Of a DNA stretch of 64,000 bases, positions 2,760 to 64,000 are shown in pieces. The stretch covers positions 1-64,000 of the forward strand of contig NZ_FRBI01000025.1 of NCBI RefSeq assembly GCF_900142575.1. Reading direction: 5' to 3'. The notes beneath the pieces were generated by a model. That model did not search any database and was not told the DNA's origin. It saw only the letters and a list, made by a program, of their open reading frames with translations. This DNA comes from Actinacidiphila paucisporea. Lineage in GTDB: Bacteria > Actinomycetota > Actinomycetes > Streptomycetales > Streptomycetaceae. The first letter of the stretch is position 1, and every line of letters starts with the position of its first letter. Both the position numbers and the translations under genes were made by a program.

Positions 2760-4115
2760 ATGGCGCGAATCTGGTCCTTGCAGTCCCGTTTGCTGGGACT
2801 GCTCCTGGCGGTCGTCGCTGCGATCGGGGTGGGTCTGCCCGCCGCGCCCCGGGCTGCAGCGGCCTCGTTGACCCAGGTCACGAACTTCGGCACCAACCCG
2901 ACCAATCTGCAGATGTACGTGTACGTGCCGAACAACGTCAAGGCCAACCCGCCGATCCTGCTGGCGCTGCACGGCTGCCAGGGATCCGGGCCCTACCTGT
3001 ACTCCAGCACCGACTTCGGATCGCTGGCGGACCAGGACGGGTTCATCGTCATCTACCCCTCGTCCAACCCGGGCGGCAGTTGCTGGGACGTCTCGTCCGA
3101 CCAGGCGCTGCGGCGCAACGGCGGCAGTGACCCGGTCGGGCTGATGTCGATGATCACGTACACCGAGCAGCACTACGGCGGGAACCCCGACGCCGTGTAC
3201 GTCACCGGCGAGTCGTCGGGCGGGATGATGACCAACGTCATGCTCGCGGACTACCCGGACGTCTTCAAGGCGGGCGCGGCGTTCATGGGCGTGCCCTACC
3301 ACTGCTTCTACACGGGCACCGTGCGCGGCTGGAACGGGCCCTGCGCCGGGGGACAGGTCTCCATGACCCCGCAGCAGTGGGGCGACCTGGTGCGCAACAA
3401 CGCCGACCCCGGGTACAACGGGCCGCGTCCCCGCGTGCAGTTGTGGCACGGCACCGCCGACACCACCTTGAACTACAACAACCTCGGTGAAGAGACCAAG
3501 CAGTGGACGAACGTACTCGGGGTGGGTCAGACCCCGTCGTCGAGTGACACCCCGGTCACCAACTGGAACAGGGCCCGATACAACAACGCCTCCGGCAGCA
3601 CGCAGGTCGAGACGTACAGCATCGTCGGTGCCGGGCACCAGTTGCCGATCCAGGGCACGCAGATGGCCGCCTACGCCGTTCACTTCATGGGCCTGGACGG
3701 CGGCGGCTCCACCCCCGCCACCACGGGCGCGCTGCACGCCGTGGGCGCGGCCAAGTGCCTGGACGACCCGAACTCGACCACGACGCCGGGCACCCAGCTG
3801 CAGATCTACAGCTGCAATGGCCAGGCCAACCAGACCTGGACGCACAACTCGTCGAACGAGCTGACGGTCGCGGTCGGAGGCAGCACCCTCTGCCTGGACG
3901 CCAACGCCAAGGGCACCGCCAACGGCACCAAGGCGATCGTCTGGTCGTGCAATGGCCAGGCCAACCAGCAGTGGAACGTCAACCCCAACGGCACGATCAC
4001 CAGCGTCCAGTCCGGCCTGTGCCTGGACGTGGTCGGAGCTTCCACCGCCAACGGAGCTCTGGTGGACCTCTGGTCGTGCAACGGCGGCAGCAACCAGAAG
4101 TGGACCTTCGGATAG
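2760..4115 (+). CDS. Secreted PHB-depolymerase/CE1-type esterase with ricin-B lectin domain
   Basis: A 451-aa exported enzyme. The ATG at 2760 follows GGAGG with good spacing; an upstream ATG at 2673 has no such site. Residues 1-35 are a signal peptide ending AAPRAAAA. Residues 36-315 form the esterase of the poly(3-hydroxybutyrate) depolymerase / acetylxylan or feruloyl esterase group, with LALHGCQG near the oxyanion site, nucleophile Ser152 in GESSG, a probable acid Asp234 in GTAD and His293 in GAGHQ. Residues about 323-451 are a beta-trefoil ricin-B/CBM13 lectin with three QxW repeats (NQTW, NQQW, NQKW), which suggests binding to plant polysaccharide. The substrate (acetyl or feruloyl ester) is inferred, not shown. 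A terminator follows at 4141. Confidence 0.88.
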   Translation: MARIWSLQSRLLGLLLAVVAAIGVGLPAAPRAAAASLTQVTNFGTNPTNLQMYVYVPNNVKANPPILLALHGCQGSGPYLYSSTDFGSLADQDGFIVIYPSSNPGGSCWDVSSDQALRRNGGSDPVGLMSMITYTEQHYGGNPDAVYVTGESSGGMMTNVMLADYPDVFKAGAAFMGVPYHCFYTGTVRGWNGPCAGGQVSMTPQQWGDLVRNNADPGYNGPRPRVQLWHGTADTTLNYNNLGEETKQWTNVLGVGQTPSSSDTPVTNWNRARYNNASGSTQVETYSIVGAGHQLPIQGTQMAAYAVHFMGLDGGGSTPATTGALHAVGAAKCLDDPNSTTTPGTQLQIYSCNGQANQTWTHNSSNELTVAVGGSTLCLDANAKGTANGTKAIVWSCNGQANQQWNVNPNGTITSVQSGLCLDVVGASTANGALVDLWSCNGGSNQKWTFG

Positions 4116-4140
4116 TCGGCGTCCGAGGCACACCTCGTAG

Positions 4141-4175
4141 GGCCCCCGCCGCGGTCGGCTACGCGGTCGGGGGCC
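4141..4175. terminator. Bidirectional hairpin terminator
   Basis: GGCCCCCG (4141-4148) pairs with CGGGGGCC (4168-4175) around a GC-rich loop, between the convergent esterase and amidase genes. Confidence 0.6.
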
Positions 4176-4188
4176 AGAGGGGCGCACG

Positions 4189-6132
4189 TCAGGTGCAGTG
4201 GACGTCCACCGCGTTGACCAGGGCCAGGCGGTGGTTGTACTGGATCGTGTACACCGTGCCGGCGCCCTGGATGTGGGTCTCGGTGAGGCGCGTCGTGCCG
4301 TTCGCCGGGTAGAAGTCGTCACGGTGGACCGGCTGGGCTGTCGCGACGTACTTCTGGCCCGCCGGGAAGGTGTACCGGGTGAACGCCGGGGCCGTGTCCA
4401 CCCCGAGGCCCGCGGGGTACTCGGACGCGTCGGGGTAGGCCTCGCCGAAGAGCGGGGCGTCGGCGGCGCCGGCCGTCGTGAGGATCCGCACGTGCCGGGC
4501 CCGGACGGTGTTCATGCCGTGCGGGTTGTCGAACCAGACCTTCTGCCCGCCGTACCAGATGGCCGTCCACTCGCCCTGCCGGCCGGCCACGACGAACTGC
4601 TGGCCCGCCGACACGGTGGCGCTCCAGTCGTTGATCTCGTCGGTGCCGGGGGAGCCGTCCGCGTGCACGTAAGGGTCGGTCGCGAGCGGTGCGCTCGCGC
4701 TCGGCGCGCTGCGCACGTAAAGGAAGTTCGACGGCTCCGACCGGTCCGCGCACGCGGGCGTCGCACCGGTCGGATCGTCCGCCGGGCACACCGTCACCGT
4801 CTGGTCGTTGGAGGCGAAGCGCGGTGCGATCGTCACCGCGCTGCCGACCGGTCCCACTCCGTGCGGGCCTTCGGCCACCGGCGCGCCCACCATCTCCATG
4901 AAGCGGTTCCAGTCCCAGTAGGGTCCCGGGTCCCAGTGCATGCCGGCGACCGACGCGTCGACCGGGCCGGGGACGTTGTCGTGGCCGATGATGTGCTCGC
5001 GGTCCAGCGCGACGTGGTACTTCGCGGCCAGGTACGTCACCAGGGCGGCCGTGTTCTCGTACTGCACCTGGGTGTACCAGGTGGCCCCGTGGGCCGCGAA
5101 GCCCTCGTGCTCGATGCCGATCGAGTGCATGTTGAACCAGTAGTTGCCCGCGTGGAAGGCCAGGTCCTTGCCGGCCACCGACTGGGTCACCGCGCCGTCG
5201 GAGGCGCGCATCACGTAGTTGGCCGCGACCCTGCTCGCGGGGTTCTGGAAGGTGGCGACGGCGGAGTCGTACGACGACTCGGTGTCGTGGATGACGATGT
5301 AGTCGATCGTCATCCCGTCGGACGGACGGGTCGCGACCTGGTAATTGGTCGTGGCCGCGGGCGCCGACCGGCAGTCGAGGTCCGGCGGGCAGTCGGTGCC
5401 CGCGTCCGAGGTCCGCTCCAGGTGCAGGGACGAGAGACCGGTGGTGTCCGCGAGCAGCGCGGGTGCGGGCGCGAGTCGCACCTCCTGGCCGTCGGCCGTG
5501 GTGCGCTCGGCCCCCGCCTTCATCGTCGCGAACACGCGGTCCGCGAAGGCGGTGGCGGCCGCCCGGTCCGAGGAGCCGCTGTACCGCGCGACCGCGGAAT
5601 ACCACACGGCAGGGCCCTGCGGAGTGTCGCCCCGCAGGTCCCGCTCGTACGAGGCCAGAAGCGCGGCGGCGGCGCGGATGTTGGACCGCCGGTCGGTCCG
5701 TACCCGCTGGGCCGGCAGGCCGGCCAGCGCGGCCGCGGCGGGCAGCGTGTGCAGCGACGGGTCGGACGCCGGCGACGCCAGGTCCGGGCGGCCCGCCGCG
5801 CCGGCCGCACCGTCCACGAGCATCGACGGCGTCACGTCCGTCAGGCTCATCGGGCCGTATCCGCCGCTCGTGTTGTGACCCTGGTGGACCTCCCACCCGG
5901 ACTCCTGGTAGGCGACTGCCAGCAGCACCGGCTCCGGCACCCCGGACTCGTGCGCGGCGTAGGCGAAGTCCCGCTGCTCGCCCGCGGCAACCGGCCCCGC
6001 GCCTGCCGCGCCCGCGCCTGCCTCGCCCACGCCGGCAGCCTCCGCCGGGGCGGTCACGCCCCCCATGACGACCAGCGTCGCGCCCACCGCGCATGCCGCC
6101 AGTCTCCGCCGCGCTCTGCGCCTGTGACCCAT
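4189..6132 (-). CDS. Secreted N-acetylmuramoyl-L-alanine amidase (amidase_2/PGRP type)
   Basis: A 647-aa exported cell-wall enzyme that would cleave the bond between muramic acid and L-alanine in peptidoglycan. The signal peptide spans residues 1-33 (ends APAEAA). A first region, about 50-220, contains YQESGW and GGYGPMSLTD and resembles a lysozyme/transglycosylase-like fold used as an N-terminal module in Streptomyces amidases. The zinc amidase domain at about 265-420 has VIHDTE, FHAGN, IGIEHEG and IIGHDNVPG, supplying the expected zinc His ligands and catalytic Glu. The C-terminal third looks like SH3-type beta modules (FLYVRSAP, WTAIWYGGQKVW). It is the first of two minus-strand envelope genes and converges on the esterase. 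Confidence 0.88.
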   Translation of the reverse strand: MGHRRRARRRLAACAVGATLVVMGGVTAPAEAAGVGEAGAGAAGAGPVAAGEQRDFAYAAHESGVPEPVLLAVAYQESGWEVHQGHNTSGGYGPMSLTDVTPSMLVDGAAGAAGRPDLASPASDPSLHTLPAAAALAGLPAQRVRTDRRSNIRAAAALLASYERDLRGDTPQGPAVWYSAVARYSGSSDRAAATAFADRVFATMKAGAERTTADGQEVRLAPAPALLADTTGLSSLHLERTSDAGTDCPPDLDCRSAPAATTNYQVATRPSDGMTIDYIVIHDTESSYDSAVATFQNPASRVAANYVMRASDGAVTQSVAGKDLAFHAGNYWFNMHSIGIEHEGFAAHGATWYTQVQYENTAALVTYLAAKYHVALDREHIIGHDNVPGPVDASVAGMHWDPGPYWDWNRFMEMVGAPVAEGPHGVGPVGSAVTIAPRFASNDQTVTVCPADDPTGATPACADRSEPSNFLYVRSAPSASAPLATDPYVHADGSPGTDEINDWSATVSAGQQFVVAGRQGEWTAIWYGGQKVWFDNPHGMNTVRARHVRILTTAGAADAPLFGEAYPDASEYPAGLGVDTAPAFTRYTFPAGQKYVATAQPVHRDDFYPANGTTRLTETHIQGAGTVYTIQYNHRLALVNAVDVHCT

Positions 6133-6318
6133 GGTCCTCAGCCTCCGCCCGTCTGCGATCTCCTCGAACGCCCCATACTGACCGAACGTCAGCCTGGAAG
6201 TCGATGGTCACTGGGGTCGCAGGGGTCACAGGTCCCTCGGCGGGACCGGCGCGCGGGGGACGTCAAGTGCGGGGCGGGAAGGGTGGCTTGCCGCAGCAGC
6301 TGGGGTTCCGGCCACGCA

Positions 6319-7161
6319 CTAGCGGGGAGCCAGGGGGAGTGGCGGGAGGGTGGTCGGCGCCAGGAGGCCCGGGAGGTCGGGTATGCCGGACGGGCCGGTG
6401 GGGATGCCGCGCGAGGTGGGGTAGGGGTGTCCGGAGCGGTCGCAGGTCTGGGGGGCGGACGGCTCCTGGAGGCGGGAGTCGGCGACCCGCTTGTCGGGGA
6501 AGGTCACCGACTGGCCCACCAGGCCGCCGGTCAGGATCTTGGTCGGGAGCTCCTTCGCGGTCAGCGGTCCGGCGCCGGTGTAGATCGCTGCCAGGTAGCC
6601 GACGCACGCCCCGGGCCGGCCGCTTCCGATGCTCTTCGGCGGGTAGACGTCCTTCACCGCCCGGCCGTCCACGCGTACCTGCGTCCGCTGGAGGGGGGCG
6701 AGGGTGAAGGAGTACTTGGCGTCCCCCGCGCTCAGGGGGTCGTCTCCGGTGGCGTGGTAGGTGATCTTCCAGTACTGGACCTGCACGGCCACCGGTTGGC
6801 ACAGCGGCCCGTCGAAGCCGGGGGAGGCCTTGTCGAAGCGCACGTGGCCCCACGTCGGGTCGGACCACGTCTGCGAGCCGATCTGCCCGAACCGCACCCA
6901 TTCCGCGGCCTGGTCGGCGTTCCACCCCTTGTTCTGGTGGCAGCCGGCCGCGCCGGTCGGGTACGGGGGCGGCGCGGTCGTGTGCGCCGTGGGGGTGGGC
7001 GTGGCCGACGCCGCCAGGCCGGTGCCGGTCGCCGTGGGGGACTCCGTCCCCGCGGTGCGGTCGTCACCGTGGCCGCCGCCGCTCGAGCACCCTGCCGCGA
7101 GCAGGCCCGCGGCGACTACCGCGACCGCCCGAATCCGGACGCCGCGATGTGACTGATTCAC
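6319..7161 (-). CDS. Secreted lipoprotein of unknown function
   Basis: A 280-aa protein with a lipobox LAAGC (Cys25), so it should be lipid-anchored outside the membrane. Residues 26-75 are a Gly/Ser/Thr/Pro-rich spacer. The rest contains paired cysteines, a WVRFGQIGSQTW stretch and a proline-rich tail, and reads like a beta-rich extracellular domain. No known family was recognised. It is divergent from the chitinase and shares the 400-base control region with it; it lies 186 bases upstream of the amidase on the same strand, so joint transcription is possible but unproved. Confidence 0.72.
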   Translation of the reverse strand: MNQSHRGVRIRAVAVVAAGLLAAGCSSGGGHGDDRTAGTESPTATGTGLAASATPTPTAHTTAPPPYPTGAAGCHQNKGWNADQAAEWVRFGQIGSQTWSDPTWGHVRFDKASPGFDGPLCQPVAVQVQYWKITYHATGDDPLSAGDAKYSFTLAPLQRTQVRVDGRAVKDVYPPKSIGSGRPGACVGYLAAIYTGAGPLTAKELPTKILTGGLVGQSVTFPDKRVADSRLQEPSAPQTCDRSGHPYPTSRGIPTGPSGIPDLPGLLAPTTLPPLPLAPR

Positions 7162-7292
7162 GTGATCCCCCCAAGCCCCCGGGCCGCCGGCAAGGCCCTG
7201 GTCCCCGACGGCCGATTTTATCCGGAGGCGGCGGAACGCACCGGAGAACCGGGGAGAGAGCCGGGGTGCGCTCCGCGCGCCTCACCCGCCTT

Positions 7293-7304
7293 TGGTCCAG
7301 ACCT
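7293..7304. promoter_or_regulatory. DasR-responsive-like element (chitinase)
   Basis: TGGTCCAGACCT matches the TGGTCTAGACCA core of DasR sites at 10 of 12 positions. It resembles the short repeats known in Streptomyces chitinase promoters. It abuts the -35 box, a position suited to repression until amino-sugar phosphate is sensed. Confidence 0.6.
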
Positions 7305-7305
7305 A

Positions 7306-7334
7306 TTGACGCGCCCTGCCGCCGCTCCTACGAT
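7306..7334 (+). promoter_or_regulatory. Sigma-70 type promoter of the chitinase gene
   Basis: TTGACG (7306-7311) and TACGAT (7329-7334) are separated by exactly 17 bases, an ideal housekeeping-type promoter. Confidence 0.65.
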
Positions 7335-28465: not shown

Positions 28466-28500
28466 CGTTTCGCATTCGTTGTCCAGCGGTGCGCAAAACG
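28466..28500. promoter_or_regulatory. Imperfect dyad in kinase/ABC intergenic region
   Basis: CGTTTCGCA (28466-28474) faces TGCGCAAAACG (28490-28500) with one extra base in the second arm. It lies next to the perfect palindrome at 28506 and may be part of the same regulator target. Confidence 0.35.
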
Positions 28501-28505
28501 AGCAG

Positions 28506-28535
28506 AAGCCCTGCTTGTGGGCACAAGCAGGGCTT
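28506..28535. promoter_or_regulatory. 30-bp perfect palindrome, putative operator
   Basis: AAGCCCTGCTTGTG (28506-28519) and CACAAGCAGGGCTT (28522-28535) are exact inverted copies around two G bases. A further CACAAG follows at about 28540. It sits 50 bases before the ABC ATPase start and 140 bases before the kinase start, so it could be an operator for either direction. Confidence 0.6.
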
Positions 28536-28571
28536 GCGCTCACAAGGCTGTCGGCGTCCGGCGGGCGCTCG

Positions 28572-53762: not shown

Positions 53763-54766
53763 GTCTTGCTCCGCATGACTCGCAGGTTGATCAGCGCGAT
53801 GACCAGCGCGGCGGCGAAGAGGATCCAGCCGAGCGCGCTGGCGAGCCCGAGGGTCGGCGCCAGGTCCTTGAGGAAGGCCAGCCGGTAGGCCTCGAGGCCC
53901 AGCACGTTGGTGTGGTCGCCGGGGCCGCCGTTGGTCATGACCAGGAAGGTCTGGAAGCCCTGCAGCGAGTCGCGCAGGTTCAGCAGCACCACGATCGAGG
54001 TGATCGGCCGTACCAGCGGCCACACCACCGAGACGTTGGTGCGCCACCAGCCGGCGCCGTCCAGCTGCGAGGCCTCCAGCACGCTGCGGTCGATGCCCTG
54101 CAGGCCCGTGAGGTACAGCAGCATCGCCACCGGCACCGCACCCCACACGGTGACCACGATCATGGTGGGCAGCGCGGTGCTCGGATTGCCGAGCCAGCCC
54201 TGCGGCTGCGCCAGCGAGCCCATGCCGAGGCTGCCGAGCACGCTGTTGACCGCGCCGTCCGGCTGCAGGATGTACTGCCAGGCGAAGAAGACCGCGATGC
54301 CGCTGGTCACGTACGGCACGAAGTAGACCGAGCGCAGCACGCCCTGCATCCGCCTGGCCGAGTTGAGCAGGACCGCGAGCGGGAAGGACACCAGCACGGT
54401 GAGCAGCGGGACGGCGATCATCACGTAGAGGGTGTGGATCGCCGCGTGGTGCAGCCGGGGGGCGTAGGCCGGGTTCTGCCAGAGCAGGTCCTTGTAGTTC
54501 CGCAGGCCCACCCAGTCCCAGTGCGGCGCGAAGCCGTTCCACCGGGCGAAGCTCAGCAGGAAGCCGTAGCCGACCGTGTACAGGCCCATGACCGCGAAGA
54601 GGATCACGGCGGGGGCGACGAAGAGATAGCCGGAGACTGCCTCGTAGGTGCGGCGGCGCAGGACGCGCCGGCCGCCGTCGGGGTCGGCCGTTCCCGCCGG
54701 CCGGGGAGCGGGTCCCCGGCCGGCGGCGGCCGTCTCCGTCAGCGCGGGACGGGGTGCGGTGGTCAC
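53759..54766 (-). CDS. Carbohydrate ABC permease (MalF-like)
   Basis: 335 aa. After a 45-residue Arg/Pro-rich cytosolic leader there are six helices, with LFVAPAVILFAVMGLYTVGYGF and the EAA loop EASQLDGAGWWRTNVSVVWPLVRP. GTG 54766 overlaps the binding-protein TGA by 4 bases. No ATPase gene is in the operon; as usual in Streptomyces, a shared MsiK-type ATPase elsewhere probably powers it. Confidence 0.92.
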   Translation of the reverse strand: MTTAPRPALTETAAAGRGPAPRPAGTADPDGGRRVLRRRTYEAVSGYLFVAPAVILFAVMGLYTVGYGFLLSFARWNGFAPHWDWVGLRNYKDLLWQNPAYAPRLHHAAIHTLYVMIAVPLLTVLVSFPLAVLLNSARRMQGVLRSVYFVPYVTSGIAVFFAWQYILQPDGAVNSVLGSLGMGSLAQPQGWLGNPSTALPTMIVVTVWGAVPVAMLLYLTGLQGIDRSVLEASQLDGAGWWRTNVSVVWPLVRPITSIVVLLNLRDSLQGFQTFLVMTNGGPGDHTNVLGLEAYRLAFLKDLAPTLGLASALGWILFAAALVIALINLRVMRSKT

Positions 54767-56157
54767 TTGGAGGTCGCCCAGAAGGAGTTGTCGAGCTTGG
54801 CCAGGGCCTTGCCGGTGGCAGCCACGTCCTTCTGCCCCAGCGGGGTGAGGTCGGCCAGGATCTCCGCCATCGAGTCCTGGTCGTAGCTCGCGGGGCGGAA
54901 GTCGTTGACGCTCGGGTCGTAGGTGTTCTCCGGGGTGCCGGTGAAGGCCTTGGTCATGTCGGCCAGCGTCGCGCCCATCACCGAGGCGGCGTCCGCGCCC
55001 AGTTCGGTGGAGGGCACCTCGGTGGCGTCCTTGGCGAACTTCGAGGCCACGCCCGGCTGCGCCAGGAACTTCATCCACTTCTCGGCGTTCTCCGGGTGCG
55101 CGCTGGTCGAGGAGACGGCCAGGCCGGTGAGCGCCAGCGGGGCGAGGGCCGGCTTGGGCACCGCGCCGGCCGCCGGGCCGGGGAAGCCGAAGGCCATGAC
55201 GTCGTCGGGGTTCATGCCGTTCTGCTGGAGGAAGGCCAGCGTGAAGGTGCCGCCGATGTCCCAGGCGGACTTGCCCTGGGCGAAGGCCTGGTCGGCGGTG
55301 TCGATGTCCAGCGTCTGGGTGCCGGGCATCCAGTACGGCTGCATCTTCGAGTAGAGGCCGAGCACCTTCTGGCCGTCGGGCGAGGCGAAGTCGGTGGAGG
55401 CGTCCTGGCCCCACAGCGCCTGGTACTTCTCCTTGCCCAGCTCGCCGAAGGCCAGCGGCTGGAGCCCCCAGGTCAGCCCGGTCGCCTTGACCTTCAGGCC
55501 GAGGCTGACGCCGCCGTTCTTCGGGTCCTTGGCGGTGGTCGCCTTGAGGTCGGCGAGGAATTCCTCGTAGCTCGCCGGGGGCTTGGTGACGCCCGCCGCC
55601 GCCAGCGCCTTCTTGTTGCCCATCACGATGCCGAAGGTGCCCGAGGTCAGCGGCACGCTGAAGCGCTGGCCCTGCTTGACGCCGTGCGACTTGGAGTCGG
55701 AGGGGATGGACTCCTTGTAGTGCGCGGGGGTCACCGTGCCGGAGGCCTGGACGCCCTTCTGGTACAGGCCGCTCCAGTCGGCGCCGACGTCCTTCGCTAT
55801 GTCGCGGGCGATGCCGGTGGCGCCCAGTGCGAAGTCCTCGCCGTCGGAGTGGACTTCGAGCACGTCCGGCAGGTCGTGGGTCTTCGCCGCCGCCTGGACC
55901 TTGGTGGTGTACGCGTCGTCGGGGCCGTAGGCCTGCACGGTGACCGTGATGCCGGTCTGCTTCTTGAACTCGGCCGCGGCGTTCTTCAGCGCCGCGACGT
56001 GCGACTGCTTGAAGGTCCACATCGTCAGCGACTTGGCGTCCCCCGAGCCCGAGGAGCCTCCGCCGCAGGCAGCCAGCGGGCTCAGCGACAGGACCGTCAC
56101 CACGGCCGCGGCGGCAAATCTGGTTTTCGGGGTAAAACGTGCGAATGGTGTGCGCAT
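54763..56157 (-). CDS. Carbohydrate ABC substrate-binding lipoprotein
   Basis: 464 aa with a lipobox LAAC (Cys31). The mature protein is a CUT1 family extracellular binding protein: LTMWTFKQSHVAALKNAAAEFKKQTGI-type opening (quoted in part: AAEFKKQTGI) and PPASYEEFLADLKA. It presents oligosaccharide to the permeases. It is the first gene of the operon, with its promoter and a dyad just upstream and the IclR gene divergent. Confidence 0.92.
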   Translation of the reverse strand: MRTPFARFTPKTRFAAAAVVTVLSLSPLAACGGGSSGSGDAKSLTMWTFKQSHVAALKNAAAEFKKQTGITVTVQAYGPDDAYTTKVQAAAKTHDLPDVLEVHSDGEDFALGATGIARDIAKDVGADWSGLYQKGVQASGTVTPAHYKESIPSDSKSHGVKQGQRFSVPLTSGTFGIVMGNKKALAAAGVTKPPASYEEFLADLKATTAKDPKNGGVSLGLKVKATGLTWGLQPLAFGELGKEKYQALWGQDASTDFASPDGQKVLGLYSKMQPYWMPGTQTLDIDTADQAFAQGKSAWDIGGTFTLAFLQQNGMNPDDVMAFGFPGPAAGAVPKPALAPLALTGLAVSSTSAHPENAEKWMKFLAQPGVASKFAKDATEVPSTELGADAASVMGATLADMTKAFTGTPENTYDPSVNDFRPASYDQDSMAEILADLTPLGQKDVAATGKALAKLDNSFWATSK

Positions 56158-56173: not shown

Positions 56174-56195
56174 TTCGGTCGTTCAGAAGACCGAA
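56174..56195. promoter_or_regulatory. Dyad TTCGGTC-N8-GACCGAA downstream of the ABC promoter
   Basis: A perfect 7-bp inverted repeat (56174-56180 and 56189-56195) between the predicted start of transcription and the binding-protein ATG. A likely operator for the adjacent IclR-type regulator or another repressor. Confidence 0.5.
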
Positions 56196-56212
56196 TGACG
56201 TTGGAGTGACTG

Positions 56213-56242
56213 AACTTAGGGTCGCGTTTGGTATAGCGTCAA
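56213..56242 (-). promoter_or_regulatory. Promoter of the sugar ABC / GH38 operon
   Basis: Minus strand: TTGACG (56242-56237), 18 bases, TAAGTT (56218-56213), a good sigma-70 type promoter. Confidence 0.55.
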
Positions 56243-56308: not shown

Positions 56309-57100
56309 GTGGAATCGGTGGCAGAAGCGGCGCGCGGGCGGAAGCCCGAAGAGGTCAAGTCCGCGGCTCGGGTCCTGGAGGTGCTCGAACTGCTGGGCGT
56401 ACAGGGCGCCCGGCTCTCGCTCGCGGAGATGGCCGCGGCCATGGCCGTGCCCAAGAGCAGCCTGCACGCGATCCTGCGGACCATGGAGGCCCGCAGATGG
56501 GTCGATCTGGACCCTTCGGGCACGCGGTACGGCATCGGGCTCAAGGCCCTGCTGACGGGTACCGCCTACCTGGAGGGCGACGACGTCACGAGCCTCGCGG
56601 GGCCCGTGCTCGACGCGCTCGCCGAGGAGACGGGCGAGGCCGTCCACCTGGGCAGGCTGGACGGTACGCACGTCGTCTACCTGGCCAAACGCGAGTCGCG
56701 GCACGCCCTTCGGATGTATTCGGCGGTCGGCCGCCGGCTGCCGGCACATGCCACGGGACTGGGCAAGGCGGTGCTCTCGCAGTTCGACCCCGCCGAGGTG
56801 CAGCGCCGGCTCGACTGGCCGCTGGAGCGGCTGACCCCGAGCACGGTGACCGACCCCGACGCCTTCCTCGCCCAGCTCGCCGAGACCCGGCTGCGCGGCT
56901 GGGCGGTGGACGACGGGGAGAACTCGGTCGACATCCGCTGCGTGGCGGTGGCGCTCGGCGGTGGCCAGGGCATGGACGCGATCAGCTGCTCGGCGCCCAA
57001 GAGCCGGATGGACGACGCCCGGGTCGAGGAGGTCGCGCAGGCCGTCACCGAGGCCGCCCACAGTCTGAGCACCCTGCTCAAACGCCTCGGACAGCACTGA
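56309..57100 (+). CDS. IclR-family transcriptional regulator
   Basis: 263 aa. A winged HTH at about 20-80 (ARVLEVLELL, then LSLAEMAAAMAVPKSSLHAI) precedes the ligand-binding IclR domain (about 90-255) with the LDGTHVVYLAKRES and LPAHATGLGKAVLS landmarks. GTG 56309 follows GGAGGA closely; GTG 56318 is an alternative. It lies between the ABC operon and the enolase operon, so it is the obvious candidate to control both, acting at the dyads at 56174 and 57120. Confidence 0.9.
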   Translation: MESVAEAARGRKPEEVKSAARVLEVLELLGVQGARLSLAEMAAAMAVPKSSLHAILRTMEARRWVDLDPSGTRYGIGLKALLTGTAYLEGDDVTSLAGPVLDALAEETGEAVHLGRLDGTHVVYLAKRESRHALRMYSAVGRRLPAHATGLGKAVLSQFDPAEVQRRLDWPLERLTPSTVTDPDAFLAQLAETRLRGWAVDDGENSVDIRCVAVALGGGQGMDAISCSAPKSRMDDARVEEVAQAVTEAAHSLSTLLKRLGQH

Positions 57101-57119: not shown

Positions 57120-57164
57120 GGCCGGTCCTGGTTTGTCATATGCGTTGACAAACTCGGACCGGCC
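57120..57164. promoter_or_regulatory. 45-bp nested palindrome, operator of the enolase operon
   Basis: Outer arms GGCCGGTCC / GGACCGGCC (57120-57128, 57156-57164) and inner arms TTTGTCA / TGACAAA (57132-57138, 57146-57152) share one dyad centre at 57142. The inner right arm contains the TTGACA of the promoter. Confidence 0.72.
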
Positions 57165-57174
57165 TCCTTACGTT
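57145..57174 (+). promoter_or_regulatory. Promoter of the enolase/ThuA/Gfo operon
   Basis: TTGACA (57145-57150), 18 bases, TACGTT (57169-57174). The -35 box lies inside the palindrome, so a bound repressor would block it. Confidence 0.6.
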
Positions 57175-57219
57175 CAGGAGTCAGTACGCCATACTGCTAT
57201 CTGTACGTGGGAGTCACGC

Positions 57220-58506
57220 ATGGCTTTGCCTGATGCCGGTCTCGCGCCGCTCGCGCCCGCACCCTGGGTCGAGGAGCGCGGTGCCACCCTCCGCATCACG
57301 GCCGTCCGCACGTTCCTGACAGCCCCGCACGGCTGTCCCCACCTCATCGTCCGCGTCGAGACCGACGACCCGGGACTCTACGGCCTCGGCTGCGCGAGCG
57401 ACCCCCAGCGTACGCTCGCCGTCCGCTCGGTCCTCGACGACTACGTCGCCCCGCTGCTGGTCGGGCGGGACCCCGACGACATCGAGGACATCCACCGGCT
57501 GCTGCTCAACAGCGCCTACTGGCGCGGTGGTTCGATCACCGGCAATGCGCTCGGCGGTGTCGACGTCGCCCTGTGGGACCTCAAGGCCAAGCGCCTCGGG
57601 GCCCCGCTGCACGCGTTGTTCGGCGGTCGGGTGCGCACCTTCGCCGAGGCCTACACCCATGTCGACGGGCGCGACGCCGCCGAGATCGCCGACAAGGTAC
57701 TGGCCGCCCGCGAGCGCGGCTACCGGCACGTGCGCATCCAGGCCGCGGTCCCGGGCGCCGACACCTACGGCGCCGCCGGCGGTGGCACCGCCGACCCCGA
57801 GGCGGTACGCACCCGGCGCGCGCCCTGGGACGGCGCCGGCTACCTGCGGCACGTGCCCCCGGTGCTCACCCGGGTGCGCGAACTCGTCGGCGACGACGTC
57901 GAGTTGCTGCACGACGTGCACGAACGGCTCGACCCGCGGCAGGCCAGGGACTTCCTGCGGCGGATCGAGGACGCGGGGCTGTACTTCGTCGAGGACCTGC
58001 TCGCCCCCGAGGACGCCGGGCACTTCAAGCGGCTGCACGACGCCTCGCCGGTACCGCTGGCGGTCGGCGAGCTCTTCCACGACCCGGCCCAGTTCACCGC
58101 GCTGCTGGCCGGGCCCGACATCGACTTCGCCCGGATCAGGGTGCCCACCCTGGGCGGGCTGACCCCCGCGCGGAAGATCGCGGCGCTGTGCGAGCTGCGC
58201 GGCGTACGCCTGGCGCCGCACGGCCCGGCCGACGTCAGCCCGGTCGCGCAGGCCGCGACGCTGGCGATGGACATCTCCAGCCACGCTTTCGGGGTGCAGG
58301 AGGCCGCGGTCTTCGCGCCGCAAGTCCACGAGGTCTTCCCCGGCACGATCACCGTGCGGGACGGTGGACTGCGACCTCACCAGACCCCGGGCCACGGCGT
58401 CGACTTCGACGAGGCCGCGGCGCGGAAGTACCCGGTACCCGAACCACTGGCCCACGACCGCTGGGCCCTGCTGCGCAACACCGATGGGAGCGTGCAACGC
58501 CCGTGA
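57220..58506 (+). CDS. Enolase-superfamily dehydratase (mannonate dehydratase/RspA-like)
   Basis: 428 aa from ATG 57220 behind GTGGGAG. The alpha/beta capping domain is followed by the barrel with metal ligands Asp in LLHDVHERL, Glu in YFVEDLLAPED and Glu in LAVGELF, and a catalytic His in RLAPHGP. This pattern fits the ManD (D-mannonate/D-gluconate dehydratase) subgroup, which dehydrates sugar acids. It starts a three-gene operon with ThuA-like and oxidoreductase genes, suggesting oxidation and dehydration of the sugar imported by the divergent operon. Confidence 0.86.
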   Translation: MALPDAGLAPLAPAPWVEERGATLRITAVRTFLTAPHGCPHLIVRVETDDPGLYGLGCASDPQRTLAVRSVLDDYVAPLLVGRDPDDIEDIHRLLLNSAYWRGGSITGNALGGVDVALWDLKAKRLGAPLHALFGGRVRTFAEAYTHVDGRDAAEIADKVLAARERGYRHVRIQAAVPGADTYGAAGGGTADPEAVRTRRAPWDGAGYLRHVPPVLTRVRELVGDDVELLHDVHERLDPRQARDFLRRIEDAGLYFVEDLLAPEDAGHFKRLHDASPVPLAVGELFHDPAQFTALLAGPDIDFARIRVPTLGGLTPARKIAALCELRGVRLAPHGPADVSPVAQAATLAMDISSHAFGVQEAAVFAPQVHEVFPGTITVRDGGLRPHQTPGHGVDFDEAAARKYPVPEPLAHDRWALLRNTDGSVQRP

Positions 58507-59156
58507 CCGATCCGATTCGGAAGGCCCTCGTCGTCCGCGGCGGCTGGGAGGGGCACTCGCCGGTGGAGATCACCGACCTGTTCCTGCCCTTCCTCAAGGA
58601 CCAGGGCTTCACCGTCGAGACCGCGCAGACGCTGGACGTCTACGCCGACGCCGAGCTGCTGGCCGCGACCGATCTGATCGTCCAGTGCTGGACGATGGGC
58701 GAGATCACCGCCGAGCAGAGCCGCGGCCTGGCCGACGCGGTCCGCGCCGGAACCGGGTTCGCCGGCTGGCACGGCGGGGTCATCGACTCCTTCCGCGGCG
58801 ACCTGGACTACCAGCGGCTGACCGGCGGCCAGTTCCTGATGCACCCGCCGGGCTTCGTGGACTACACCGTCGACGTGGCGCCCGGCGGGCACGGGATCAC
58901 CGCGGGGCTGGCCGACTTCGCCGTGCACACCGAGCACTACTGGGTGGCCACCGACCCGGCGAACGAGGTGCTGGCCACCTCGGTCTTCCCGGCCGGCGGC
59001 GACCGCGCGCGGGATGTGGTGATGCCACAGGTGTGGACCAGGACCTGGGGGGCGGGGCGGGTCTTCGTCTCCGCGATCGGCCACAAGGCCGACGACTTCG
59101 ACGTGCCAGAGGTGCGGGCGATCACCGAGAGGGGGCTGCTGTGGGCGAGCCGTTGA
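58503..59156 (+). CDS. ThuA-like protein
   Basis: 217 aa. KALVVRGGWEGHSPVEITD and GFAGWHGG followed by GGQFLMHP are ThuA-domain hallmarks (class I glutamine amidotransferase-like fold). Rhizobial ThuA works with ThuB in oxidative use of disaccharides through 3-keto sugars; the exact reaction is uncertain. GTG 58503 overlaps the preceding stop by 4 bases. Confidence 0.88.
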   Translation: MTDPIRKALVVRGGWEGHSPVEITDLFLPFLKDQGFTVETAQTLDVYADAELLAATDLIVQCWTMGEITAEQSRGLADAVRAGTGFAGWHGGVIDSFRGDLDYQRLTGGQFLMHPPGFVDYTVDVAPGGHGITAGLADFAVHTEHYWVATDPANEVLATSVFPAGGDRARDVVMPQVWTRTWGAGRVFVSAIGHKADDFDVPEVRAITERGLLWASR

Positions 59157-60220
59157 GGATCGGCATGGTGGGCGCGGGCAAGATAAGCGGCCAGTACCTG
59201 GACACCGTCGCCCGGCTGGACGGGCTGCGGCTGACCGCGGTCACCGACCTGGACCCGGCCCGCGCCAAGGAGGCCGCGGACAGGGCGGGCGCCGACGTGG
59301 TGGGCGGTGTCGAGGAGCTGGTCGCCAGGGACGACGTGGACGCGGTGCTCAACCTGACGATCCCCGCCGTCCACGCCGAGGTCGCGCTGGCCGCGATCGG
59401 CGCGGGCCGGCACGTCTACGGCGAGAAGCCGCTCGCCACCACCCGCGAGGAGGCCGCCGCCGTCCTGGCCGCGGCGCGCACCGCGGGCGTACGCGTCGGC
59501 AGCGCCCCCGACACCGTGCTCGGCACCGGCACCCAGACCGCGCGCAAGGCGGTGGACGACGGGCTGATCGGCATCCCGGTGGCGGCGACCGCCTTCATGA
59601 CCACCGCGGGCCACGAGGCCTGGCACCCGGACCCGGAGTTCTACTACCGGCCCGGCGGCGGCCCGCTGCTGGACATGGGGCCCTACTACCTGTCCGCGCT
59701 GGTGCACCTGCTCGGCCCGGTCGTCAAGGTCACCGGAGCCGCCGCGGCGCCGCGCGCCGAGCGGGAGATCGGCAGCGGGCGGCGGGCCGGGCAGCGCTTC
59801 GCGGTCGAGGTCGACACGCATGTGACGGGCATTCTGGAACACGCCGGCGGCGCGCTGTCCACGCTGATCATGAGCTTCGACATCCACGCCGCCCACCTGC
59901 CGCGGATCGAGGTGCACGGCACGGCCGGATCACTCGGCGTGCCCGACCCCAACGGCTTCGACGGCCCGGTCGAGCTGTTCACCGCCGGCTCCTGGCAGCC
60001 GCTGCCGGTCTCGGCGGGCTACCGGGGCGCCGGACGCGGCACGGGACTTGCCGACCTGGCCGCCGCGGTGGCCGGGGACCGCCCGCACCTGGCGTCGGCC
60101 GAGCTGGCCGAGCACGTGCTCGACGTGATGCTCACGCTGCTCGACGCGGCACACGAGGGCAGGTCGCTGCCGGTGGCGAGCAGATGCGAGCGGCCCGCGC
60201 CGGTGCCGCTCACGGGCTGA
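59141..60220 (+). CDS. Gfo/Idh/MocA-family oxidoreductase
   Basis: 359 aa. The Rossmann start IGMVGAGKISGQYL, the GEKPLATT motif with catalytic Lys, and DMGPYYLSALVHLLGP are diagnostic. It is an NAD(P)-dependent sugar dehydrogenase, probably acting with the ThuA-like protein as in ThuAB. GTG 59141 follows GAGAGGGGG and overlaps the ThuA-like gene by 16 bases. The operon ends in a very strong hairpin. Confidence 0.9.
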   Translation: MGEPLRIGMVGAGKISGQYLDTVARLDGLRLTAVTDLDPARAKEAADRAGADVVGGVEELVARDDVDAVLNLTIPAVHAEVALAAIGAGRHVYGEKPLATTREEAAAVLAAARTAGVRVGSAPDTVLGTGTQTARKAVDDGLIGIPVAATAFMTTAGHEAWHPDPEFYYRPGGGPLLDMGPYYLSALVHLLGPVVKVTGAAAAPRAEREIGSGRRAGQRFAVEVDTHVTGILEHAGGALSTLIMSFDIHAAHLPRIEVHGTAGSLGVPDPNGFDGPVELFTAGSWQPLPVSAGYRGAGRGTGLADLAAAVAGDRPHLASAELAEHVLDVMLTLLDAAHEGRSLPVASRCERPAPVPLTG

Positions 60221-60233
60221 CGGAGCGCGCGGG

Positions 60234-60276
60234 CGGCGGAAAGGGACCGGCTATGGGGGCCGGTCCCTTTCCGCCG
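60234..60276 (+). terminator. Strong terminator of the enolase operon
   Basis: CGGCGGAAAGGGACCGG and CCGGTCCCTTTCCGCCG are a perfect 17-bp stem with a 9-base loop, followed by CCTTTTC. Confidence 0.85.
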
Positions 60277-60298
60277 CCTTTTCGCGTCCGTGCTGTCA

Positions 60299-60310
60299 CG
60301 TTAATTAACG
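60299..60310. promoter_or_regulatory. Palindrome CGTTAATTAACG
   Basis: A perfect 12-base AT-rich palindrome in an otherwise GC-rich region, upstream of the second mannosidase; possible regulator site. Confidence 0.35.
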
Positions 60311-60401
60311 GACGAAGAATGCCCGTTGTGGCGGGAAATTCGACTGACACATACGTTTTTGCAGGTCACGACCAGCGGGAAAGTCCAATTCGGCGGAAGC
60401 G

Positions 60402-60431
60402 TTGACTTGATAACACACATGGTTTTACATG
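60402..60431 (+). promoter_or_regulatory. Possible promoter of the second GH38 gene
   Basis: TTGACT (60402-60407) is followed after about 17-18 bases by an AT-rich TTACAT, 30 bases before the ATG. The -10 match is poor. Confidence 0.35.
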
Positions 60432-60462
60432 GCGGTCACTGGCTGGACAGGAAGGGCTGCCC

Positions 60463-63400
60463 ATGCATGACCGGATCACGTCCGGGGAAGAGCGGACCGC
60501 CGCCTTCCTCGCCGAACGGCTGCGCCCCGCGCTCTACCCGCAGCGGCTGCCCATGGACGTCGGCGCCTGGCACATCGCGGGCGAGCCCGTGCCCGCCGAG
60601 GTCGCGCTGCGCGCCGACTACGCTCCCTTCACCGTCGGCGAGCCATGGGGCCGCCCCTGGGCGACCAGCTGGTTCGACGTCCGAGCGACCGTGCCGGAGC
60701 GGTGGGCGGGGCGCCGGGTCGAGGCGCTGATCGACCTTGGTTCCGCGGAGGGCGACGGCGCACCGGGCGGCCGGGCCGAAGGCCTGGTCCATGACGAGCA
60801 CGGCATCCCGTTGCAAGGCCTGCACCCGCACCTCGGCGCGGTCCTGCTGCACCGCTCCGCGGCCGGCGGCGAGAGCGTCAGGCTGATGGTCGAAGCCGCG
60901 GCCAACCCGCGGATCGAGGGCGGCACCGGCGCGGGCACCCGCTACGGCGACCCTGCCACCGCCGGCGACGCTCCGCTGTACCGCCTGCGCCGCGCCGACC
61001 TGGCCGTACGGGACGACACCGTCTGGGAGTTGATCCACGACTTCGAGACGCTCGCCGGCCTGATGCGGGCACTGCCCGCCGACACCCCCCGCAGGCACGA
61101 GATGCGTGTCGCGCTGGAGCGTGCGGTGGCCGCCGTCGACCCGCGGGCCGTCGCCAGGACCGCGGACCGGGCGCGTACGGTACTCGCCCCGCTGCTGGCC
61201 CGCCGCGCCCACGACTCCGCCCACCGCGTCGACGCGGTCGGTCACGCGCACATCGACTCCGCCTGGCTGTGGCCGGTCCGCGAGACCGTACGCAAGTGCG
61301 CCCGCACCTTCAGCACCATGGCCGCGCTCGCCGACGAATACCCCGAACTGATCGTCGCCGCCTCGGCGGCCCAGCACTACGCCTGGATGAAGGACCACCA
61401 GCCGCACGTCTTCGAGCGGATACGCAAGGCCGTCGCCCACGGCAACTGGGCGCCGGTCGGCGGCATGTGGGTCGAGGCCGACGCCGAGATGCCGGGCGGC
61501 GAGGCGCTGGTGCGGCAGTTCGTCTACGGGCGGCGCTTCTTCCGCGACGAGCTGGGCGTGGAGGGCGACGGCGTGTGGCTGCCCGACGCCTCCGGCGCGT
61601 CGGCGGCCTTCCCGCAGCTGGCCGCGCTGTCCGGCGCGAGGTGGTTCCTCAGCCGGCGCCCCGACCCCGGCACCGGGCCCGCGCACCACACCTTCCGCTG
61701 GGAGGGCATCGACGGCACCCGGCTGTTCACCCACCTCGCGCCCGGCGGCCCCGAAGGCAGCACGCTGACCGGCGCCGACCTCACCGGCGCGGTCGCCGGC
61801 TTCGCGGAGCTGGGCGCCGCCACCCGCTCCCTGCTGCCCTTCGGCCGCGGCGACGGCGGCCCCGACCGGGACATGCTGGAAAGGGCCCGCCGCCTCGCCG
61901 ACCTCGAAGGCGCCCCCCGGGTGGAGCTGCGCTCCCCGGCGCACTTCTTCCGCGACGCCGAGGCCGAATACGCCGCCGCCCCGGTCTGGCGCGGCGAGAT
62001 CGACCTGACACCGCACGGCGGCTCCTACACCAGCCAGGCCCGCACCAAACGCGGCAACCGGCGCAGCGAGGCGCTGCTGCACGAGGCCGAGCTGTGGTCG
62101 GCTACCGCGGCGGTCCGCCACGGCATCCCCTACCCCTACGAGGAGTTGGAGCGGCTGTGGAAGAAGGTGCTGCTCCAGCAGTGCCACGACATCCTGCCCG
62201 GCACCTCGATCGCCTGGGTGCACGGCGAGGCCGAGCTGACCCACCGCGATGTGCAGCGGCGCCTCGACCGGCTGATCCGGCGGGCCGCCGGCGACCCCGA
62301 GGGCGGCAGCGTCCTCAACTCCGGGCCCCACGACCGCCGCGAGGTCGTCGTGCTGGCCCCGCCCGAGGCCGGCGCCGGATCGCCGCCCGCCAACGGGCAG
62401 CAGCTGCCCGACGGCCGGGTCGCCGTCCTGGCCCAGGCGCCCGCCCTCGGCGGCGGACCCGCCGGACTGCCGCTCGACGGCACCGCGCCGGTCACCGTCA
62501 CCCCCGCGCAGGACGGCGGGCACCTGCTCGACAACGGCCTGCTGCGGGTGCGCGTCGACCCGCACGGCCTGGTGCGCTCGGCGGTCGACCTGGCCACCGG
62601 ACGCGACGCGCTGGCCCCCGGCGAGGCGGGCAACCTGCTGCAGCTGCACCGCGACGAGCCCGCCGAGTGGAGCGCCCTGCACCTGGACCCCGGCTACCGC
62701 AGCACCCGCCGCGACCTGGACACCGCCGACCGCGTCGAGGTCACCGCCGCCGGCCCGCTGCTCGCCGCCGTACGGGTCACCCGCGGCACCGGCCGCTCCA
62801 CGGTCGTCCAGGACCTGACGCTGAGCGCCGGCAGCCGGGCGCTGACGGTGGACACCGAGGTCGACTGGCGCGAGCAGGACACCGTACTCAAGGCCGCCTG
62901 GCCGCTCGACGTGCACGCCGAGAACAGCAGCGCCGAGGTCCAGTTCGGCCATGTCACCCGCCCCACCCACGAGAACACCGCGGCCGACGCCGCCCGCCAG
63001 GAGGCCGTCGCCCACCGCTGGATCCACGTCGCCGAGCACGGCTTCGGCGTCGCCCTGGCCTGCGACGCGACCTACGGCTACGACGTCACCCGGCACACCC
63101 GCGCCGACGGCGGCACCACCACCGTCGTCCGCAGCACCCTGCTGCGCGCCCCGCACAGCCCCGACCCGCACGCCGACCGCGGTATACAGCGCTTCCGGCA
63201 CACCCTGCGGCCCGGCGCGGACGCCGGCGACGCCATCGCCGAGGGATACGCGCTCAATCTCCCGCTGCGCCCCGGCCCCGGCACCCCCGACCCGCTCCCG
63301 CTGGCCGCCGTCGACCACCCGGGCGTGCTGGTCGAGACCGTCAAACTCGCCGACGACCGCAGCGGCGACGTCGTCGTCAGGCTCTACGAATCACGCGGCG

Positions 63401-63591
63401 GCCGCGCCCGCGCCACCCTCTCGGCCGGCTTCCCCCTCACCGGCGTCCACGAGACCGACCTGCTGGAGACCCCGCTGACCACCCATCCGCACGACGCCGG
63501 CCGCGTCACGCTGACGCTGCGCCCCTTCCAGATCCTCACCCTGCGCCTGACCCCGGCCGCGGCTCCGGCAGGCGGGGTGAGCCGTGGCTGA
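60463..63591 (+). CDS. GH38 alpha-mannosidase (second copy, altered nucleophile loop)
   Basis: 1042 aa, cytoplasmic, a paralogue of the 48749 gene over its full length. Zinc ligands His261 and Asp265 are kept in GHAHIDSAWLWP and the late QQCHDILPGTS. The nucleophile Asp375 is kept, but the loop reads LPDASGASAAFPQL instead of the usual FGY-containing LPDSFGYTAAYPQL, so the +/- subsite is altered. It may prefer a different linkage or sugar, or be impaired. ATG 60463 has GGAAGGG upstream. The last 8 bases overlap the start of an IS630-type HTH gene. Confidence 0.9.
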   Translation: MHDRITSGEERTAAFLAERLRPALYPQRLPMDVGAWHIAGEPVPAEVALRADYAPFTVGEPWGRPWATSWFDVRATVPERWAGRRVEALIDLGSAEGDGAPGGRAEGLVHDEHGIPLQGLHPHLGAVLLHRSAAGGESVRLMVEAAANPRIEGGTGAGTRYGDPATAGDAPLYRLRRADLAVRDDTVWELIHDFETLAGLMRALPADTPRRHEMRVALERAVAAVDPRAVARTADRARTVLAPLLARRAHDSAHRVDAVGHAHIDSAWLWPVRETVRKCARTFSTMAALADEYPELIVAASAAQHYAWMKDHQPHVFERIRKAVAHGNWAPVGGMWVEADAEMPGGEALVRQFVYGRRFFRDELGVEGDGVWLPDASGASAAFPQLAALSGARWFLSRRPDPGTGPAHHTFRWEGIDGTRLFTHLAPGGPEGSTLTGADLTGAVAGFAELGAATRSLLPFGRGDGGPDRDMLERARRLADLEGAPRVELRSPAHFFRDAEAEYAAAPVWRGEIDLTPHGGSYTSQARTKRGNRRSEALLHEAELWSATAAVRHGIPYPYEELERLWKKVLLQQCHDILPGTSIAWVHGEAELTHRDVQRRLDRLIRRAAGDPEGGSVLNSGPHDRREVVVLAPPEAGAGSPPANGQQLPDGRVAVLAQAPALGGGPAGLPLDGTAPVTVTPAQDGGHLLDNGLLRVRVDPHGLVRSAVDLATGRDALAPGEAGNLLQLHRDEPAEWSALHLDPGYRSTRRDLDTADRVEVTAAGPLLAAVRVTRGTGRSTVVQDLTLSAGSRALTVDTEVDWREQDTVLKAAWPLDVHAENSSAEVQFGHVTRPTHENTAADAARQEAVAHRWIHVAEHGFGVALACDATYGYDVTRHTRADGGTTTVVRSTLLRAPHSPDPHADRGIQRFRHTLRPGADAGDAIAEGYALNLPLRPGPGTPDPLPLAAVDHPGVLVETVKLADDRSGDVVVRLYESRGGRARATLSAGFPLTGVHETDLLETPLTTHPHDAGRVTLTLRPFQILTLRLTPAAAPAGGVSRG

Positions 63592-64000
63592 CGCGCACCT
63601 CACGCCCGGCGCCGGCGAGGAGGCCGCGGCCGGCAGCCGCGAGGTGCTGCGCGGCTGGGCCACCGGCGGCGGCCCGATGGCCGTACGCGCCCAGGTCGTG
63701 CTGCTCGCCGAAGAAGGCGTGCGGGACGCCGAGATCGCCCGGCGGCTCGGCATCTCCCGGCAGACCGTGGGCACCTGGCGGCACCGCTGGCAGAGCGCCG
63801 GGCTGCCCGGCCTCGAACAGCGCCCGCGCACCGGCAGACCCGCCACCGTGGACGAGGCCGAGGTCGTCACCCGCGCCCTGCTCGCCCCCGGCGGCAGCGG
63901 CGCGGGGCGGGCCATCGCCCGCGAACTGGGCCTGTCACACGCCACCGTGGCCGCGATCCGCCGCCGCTGGCGGCTCACCGCCGACGCAGGACCCGGCCCC
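63584..64000 (+). CDS. IS630-type helix-turn-helix protein, N-terminal part (runs off right edge)
   Basis: GTG 63584 opens a frame that stays open to the window end (139 codons). It carries two HTH units: DAEIARRLGISRQTVGTWRHRW at about 45-66, and AIARELGLSHATVAAIRRRW at about 108-127, joined by GLEQRPRTGRP, as in the DNA-binding half of IS630/Tc1 transposases. However, it overlaps the mannosidase stop by 8 bases and so is translationally coupled to it, which suits a domesticated regulator of this sugar operon better than a mobile element. The catalytic part, if any, is outside the window. Confidence 0.7.
   Translation, partial: MADAHLTPGAGEEAAAGSREVLRGWATGGGPMAVRAQVVLLAEEGVRDAEIARRLGISRQTVGTWRHRWQSAGLPGLEQRPRTGRPATVDEAEVVTRALLAPGGSGAGRAIARELGLSHATVAAIRRRWRLTADAGPGP

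Follow-up and report, generated by a model that had tools for sequence, protein, structure and literature searches.

On balance, we favor an explanation in which two control sites are stacked at the promoter of the dht-thuA-gfo operon. At the first, an IclR-family regulator encoded upstream would bind as a pair of dimers at 57171-57207, reaching from inside the -10 box over the start region. It would also occupy an equivalent site at 56180-56216, which begins within the -10 box of the transporter operon on the divergent side, and would repress both operons until a sugar-acid-type ligand frees the protein. The second site would be the nested 45-bp palindrome at 57120-57164, a separate operator centered about 40 bp upstream of the start, where a second regulator reading GTTTGTCA-N7-TGACAAAC would obstruct RNA polymerase at the -35 box. 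ROK would be the leading candidate class for this second regulator, and locally the strongest candidate is the ROK-fusion protein whose gene closes the cluster. The sequences, with their conservation, register and specificity across genomes, are observed, and from them we infer the identity of the binders, repression over activation, and the ligands. The arrangement suggests that one promoter answers to two regulators, an IclR and another that is possibly a ROK protein, and it provides a new predicted operator and two-operon regulon for an uncharacterized IclR regulator in Actinacidiphila and Streptomyces. It also carries a lesson, in that a perfect-looking palindrome beside a regulator gene is probably not the site of that regulator, and the less symmetric, better conserved element is.

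Gene neighborhood and promoters

In the window, which is the whole 64,000-nucleotide stretch analyzed, a gene for a sugar ABC transporter substrate-binding lipoprotein (54763-56157, minus strand; weak Pfam and NCBIfam solute-binding matches, conserved synteny) diverges from iclR (56309-57100, plus strand; 263 aa, GTG start). The iclR product matches Pfam IclR_C at 1.2e-45 and HTH_IclR at 1.4e-11, in agreement with the earlier note that an IclR protein is encoded just upstream of the palindrome. The genes that follow are all on the plus strand. The first, dht (57220-58506), encodes a mannonate/galactonate dehydratase-like enzyme of the enolase superfamily (NCBIfam ManD 1.2e-107, under the equivalog cut-off). 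It is followed by genes for a ThuA-domain protein (58503-59156), a Gfo/Idh/MocA-type oxidoreductase (59144-60220) and a GH38 alpha-mannosidase (60463-63591). Last comes the ROK-fusion regulator, a 755-aa protein with an IS630-type HTH, a winged HTH and a ROK domain, of which only the start lies in the window (63584-64000; 63584-65851 on the contig, L142:5585-7849). The cluster probably serves mannoside degradation. About 28 distinct loci from Actinacidiphila, Streptomyces and Nonomuraea share the lipoprotein-iclR-dehydratase order, with IclR proteins 76-99% identical, and these loci form the basis of our ortholog comparison. A literature search found no publication linking IclR with a Streptomyces mannonate dehydratase.

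From sequence and conservation, the -35 box of the dehydratase operon is TTGACA (57145-57150, plus strand), followed 18 bp on by the -10 box TACGTT (57169-57174, plus strand). TTGACA is conserved in nearly all orthologs, at 17-18 bp from the -10 box. The transporter operon has a -35 box TTGACG (56237-56242, minus strand) with an 18-bp spacer to its -10 box TAAGTT (56213-56218, minus strand), which is conserved in the alignment. A likely extended -10 box of iclR (TGG-TATAGC, 56232-56237, plus strand) lies in a conserved block, and the divergent iclR and transporter promoters overlap at 56213-56242, with TGG-TATAGC touching TTGACG.

Four-box sites at the dehydratase and lipoprotein promoters

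Among these orthologous loci, the best conserved element in both aligned intergenic regions is a four-box site and not the palindrome. Site A, at the dehydratase promoter (57171-57207; consensus CGTTCrGATAGCAGTACnnCATTCTGCTATCTGTACG), carries GTTC at 57172-57175, GTAC at 57184-57187, ATAC at 57191-57194 and GTAC at 57203-57206. Site B, at the lipoprotein promoter (56180-56216; consensus CGTTCAGAAGACCGAATGACGTTGGAGTGACTGAACT), carries GTTC at 56181-56184, GAAT at 56193-56196, GTTG at 56200-56203 and GAAC at 56212-56215, so that both have the identical box spacing GTTC-N8-GWAY-N3-RTWS-N8-GWAC. Conservation of the four boxes extends over 28 distinct sequences for A and 15 for B, with a mean information of 1.77 (A) and 1.90 (B) bits per base inside the boxes versus 1.15 and 1.45 outside. 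Furthermore, A and B resemble each other in the four-box register only (0.55-0.59 versus at most 0.36 otherwise). A palindrome drawn from the two sites places both promoters among its three best matches in 8.16 Mb. Across 35 Actinacidiphila genomes, all exact four-box matches (23/23) fall at these two promoters, and the genomes without the cluster contain none.

Each four-box site touches or overlaps the -10 box of the facing gene, B overlapping TAAGTT and A spanning the -10/start region. The IclR-family gene adjoins both sites and is co-conserved with them, and the exact sites occur only in genomes that have the iclR cluster. Given this phylogenetic footprint and genome-wide specificity, it is highly probable that the IclR protein encoded upstream reads the predicted four-box sites at both operons. 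Comparative work has assigned tandem IclR sites with centers 18-22 bp apart to tetramer binding (Suvorova and Gelfand 2021, PMC8222616), and A and B each comprise two palindromes whose centers are 19 bp apart. They share with those operators the center distance, the alternating GTTC/GAAC-type boxes, the promoter overlap and the adjoining regulator gene, a likeness that belongs to A and B and not to the 45-bp palindrome. Set against the consensus GKTYCRYW3-4RYGRAMC, both contain the GTTC/GAAC boxes with a spacing one base short (GTT-10-AAC, compared with GTT-11-AAC in PMC8222616). Unlike the published tandem sites, A and B have four recognizable boxes in one 35-bp site.

These sites also bear on the wider proposals of the earlier note, which had imagined a tetrameric regulator on four half-sites and a regulon of two operons. 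Both ideas were probably right but belong to the four-box element instead of the palindrome: the four-half-site arrangement is found at 57171-57207 and 56180-56216, and the element common to both IclR-flanking promoters supports the two-operon regulon. The regulon had been proposed from a GGTC/GACC element shared between the palindrome and a weaker dyad at 56174. That dyad (TTCGGTC/GACCGAA) exists and overlaps half of site B, but its likeness to the palindrome is a coincidence, because its left arm is not conserved and varies freely between species.

The nested palindrome on the -35 box

The palindrome consists of two arms of 19 nt (57120-57138 and 57146-57164) that are complementary at 17/19 positions around a center at 57142. 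The outer 9 bp (GGCCGGTCC/GGACCGGCC) enclose inner arms GTTTGTCA/TGACAAAC and a 7-nt spacer. The center and the outer length are as first described, while the inner arm measures 8 bp and not 7, and TTGACA lies within an inner arm as had been claimed, on the right side. In a hairpin screen of the window (arms of 19, spacers of 3-15, threshold 17/19), none of 40 Markov-shuffled windows held such a hairpin, and the real window held three at 17/19 or better, at 57120-57164, 60230-60277 and 28500. With up to 3 mismatches allowed, the inner pattern was found once in the window against an expectation of 0.08, and the full pattern has a single match in the 8.16-Mb genome of this soil bacterium, an Actinacidiphila, even at 3 mismatches. 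An Rfam search of 54-61 kb returned zero matches, and no publication giving the motif was found in a literature search.

In relatives, the inner arms GTTTGTCA-N7-TGACAAAC hold the same position over the -35 box in 12 of the 14 distinct operon-bearing Actinacidiphila promoters sampled, and are missing in two operon-bearing species (L013, L015). Between the iclR stop and the inner dyad lie 21 to 137 nt, depending on the promoter, while the -35 register stays constant. The outer arms are retained in nine sampled relatives with compensatory changes, at full length even in clades whose upstream DNA has otherwise diverged (L016, L017, L019). In three others (L014, L018, L020) the outer stem is lost and the inner arm sequence is still kept. 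Over 12 aligned palindromes 88.6% of cells pair, and double-sided changes affect 7/19 pairs versus 1-3 for slid-partner controls. The fixed register and paired changes favor a promoter element over a terminator, which supports the earlier suggestion of a regulatory dyad on the -35 box. It is reasonably probable, on this sequence evidence, that the palindrome is a separate, second operator.

Beyond Actinacidiphila, the 45-bp palindrome was not found in Streptomyces or Nonomuraea orthologs whose IclR is 76-88% identical. The Streptomyces counterpart of the left inner arm is TTTGGTAGAGTC. The case for a conserved inner dyad there is weakened, since TTTGGTA may instead belong to an extended -10 box (TG-G-TAGAGT), and for this reason the dyad is best treated as a feature of Actinacidiphila. 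At two loci (L187:5851 and L188:6123), iclR and most of the dehydratase gene have been lost, and a promoter remnant with a decayed inner dyad is kept. Mismatched inner-dyad matches in two genomes (G010, G026) were set aside as independent cases because they seem to be what is left of the same promoter once the dehydratase gene had been lost. Another genome (G027), which keeps a dehydratase homolog without the upstream cluster, adds nothing.

The main rival explanation, which we consider unlikely, is that the palindrome terminates iclR transcription as a hairpin and includes the -35 box of the next operon by chance. Like actinobacterial terminator hairpins, it is a strong stem shortly past a stop codon, beginning 20 nt after iclR and folding as RNA at -35.6 kcal/mol (z -4.9). 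The other perfect hairpins in the window are also intergenic, one with a T-run, and the double changes in L019, which preserve pairing and alter sequence, would suit a stem. However, the palindrome differs from such terminators in lacking a T-run (the stem is followed by TCCTTACG) and in being tied to the next promoter rather than to the iclR stop. Its inner arms are moreover conserved in sequence where the outer stem has gone, and an unrelated ROK cluster has the inner motif too.

Similarly improbable is the proposal that the outer arms are a neutral by-product, in which template switching during replication lengthened a short functional dyad and preserved its perfect pairing. Consistent with this, the outer arms are limited to some Actinacidiphila, differ in sequence by species and are near-perfect in each, and template switching produces concerted changes. 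Against it stands the maintenance of full length in the nine sampled species, the diverged clades included. The outer arms themselves are ambiguous, as compensatory changes to different sequences would be expected from a stem or from template switching as well.

Candidate readers of the palindrome

If the palindrome is a second operator, its reader may be of the ROK type, an assignment that we make tentatively. The exact motif GTTTGTCA-N7-TGACAAAC occurs in 12/395 genomes of the family (backward control, 0), and outside the dehydratase promoter it is confined to four of these genomes, in a ROK/GH29-fucosidase/sugar-transporter cluster (L118 at 2971-7331, L127, L128 and L129). There it precedes a sugar-binding gene, with a second copy before the fucosidase gene in L118, and most copies have a wider GAGTTTGTCA half-site. 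When the ROK protein of the fucosidase cluster was used as an unbiased query against 150 genomes, the hits fell in precisely the two sampled genomes that carry such sites. Operators of ROK regulators are commonly palindromes that overlap promoter boxes (PMC9599254). The present site shares with the operators of CsnR of Streptomyces (PMC3048496) and NagR of Bifidobacterium (PMC9599254) a symmetric layout over a sugar operon's promoter box. As for such operators, a ROK gene lies in the cluster, and the identical inner motif is found in separate, independent ROK/fucosidase clusters. In contrast to the CsnR and NagR sites, this candidate site has additional GC-rich outer arms, is single-copy in the genome and has no counterpart at the ROK gene's own (gh38-rok) promoter, where autoregulation would lead one to expect a copy.

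The local candidate joins an HTH of the IS630-transposase type (residues ~31-123) to a complete ROK regulator. In Actinacidiphila this fusion is a conserved neighbor of the operon, and it is present in most Streptomyces and Nonomuraea genomes checked. Its paralogs, 43-45% identical, adjoin other GH38 clusters, in which no clear copy of the palindrome was found. This genome encodes no close ortholog of the fucosidase-cluster ROK protein (best match, 32%), and an HTH comparison did not clearly single out the local ROK fusion as the closest relative of that protein's HTH.

A reader from another family, such as GntR, LacI, TetR or other, encoded elsewhere, has a low probability in our judgment. 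Inverted repeats of 7 bp are read by many families, and the ROK protein is only a candidate binder, but the exact inner motif, across the 395 genomes, is restricted to the dehydratase promoter and the ROK cluster. We would be surprised if one ROK fusion read both dyads, the inner through its winged HTH and the outer through its IS630-transposase-type HTH. If true, a domesticated transposase DNA-binding domain would have been built into a sugar regulator. Also very improbable is the original proposal that IclR itself occupies the 45-bp palindrome through four half-sites: although the gene adjoins a four-arm symmetric site and IclR proteins can bind as tetramers (PMC8222616), the palindrome is unlike the element common to both IclR-flanked promoters, occurs neither at the transporter promoter nor in the orthologs with 76-88% identical IclR, and has arms (GTTTGTCA/TGACAAAC, GGCCGGTCC) that depart from the IclR box consensus and are without the GTTC/GAAC boxes of A and B.

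Several further elements were observed in the window. Near-perfect hairpins also lie at 28500-28536 and at 60230-60277, the latter between gfo and gh38 and followed by TTTT, so that it looks like a terminator. A conserved inverted repeat lies at 60294-60349 (TGTCAkgcnAATT...AATTnGCCTGACA) and has a TTGTCA/TGACAA half-site in common with the 45-bp palindrome. In most orthologs its inner spacing and its distance from the gh38 promoter are nearly fixed. Over the gh38-rok promoter itself, the block at 60400-60436 (CGTTGACTTGATAACACnCwTGGTTTTACATGGCGG) is near-invariant from Nonomuraea to Actinacidiphila and likely includes another regulator site, because it is too conserved for promoter boxes alone.
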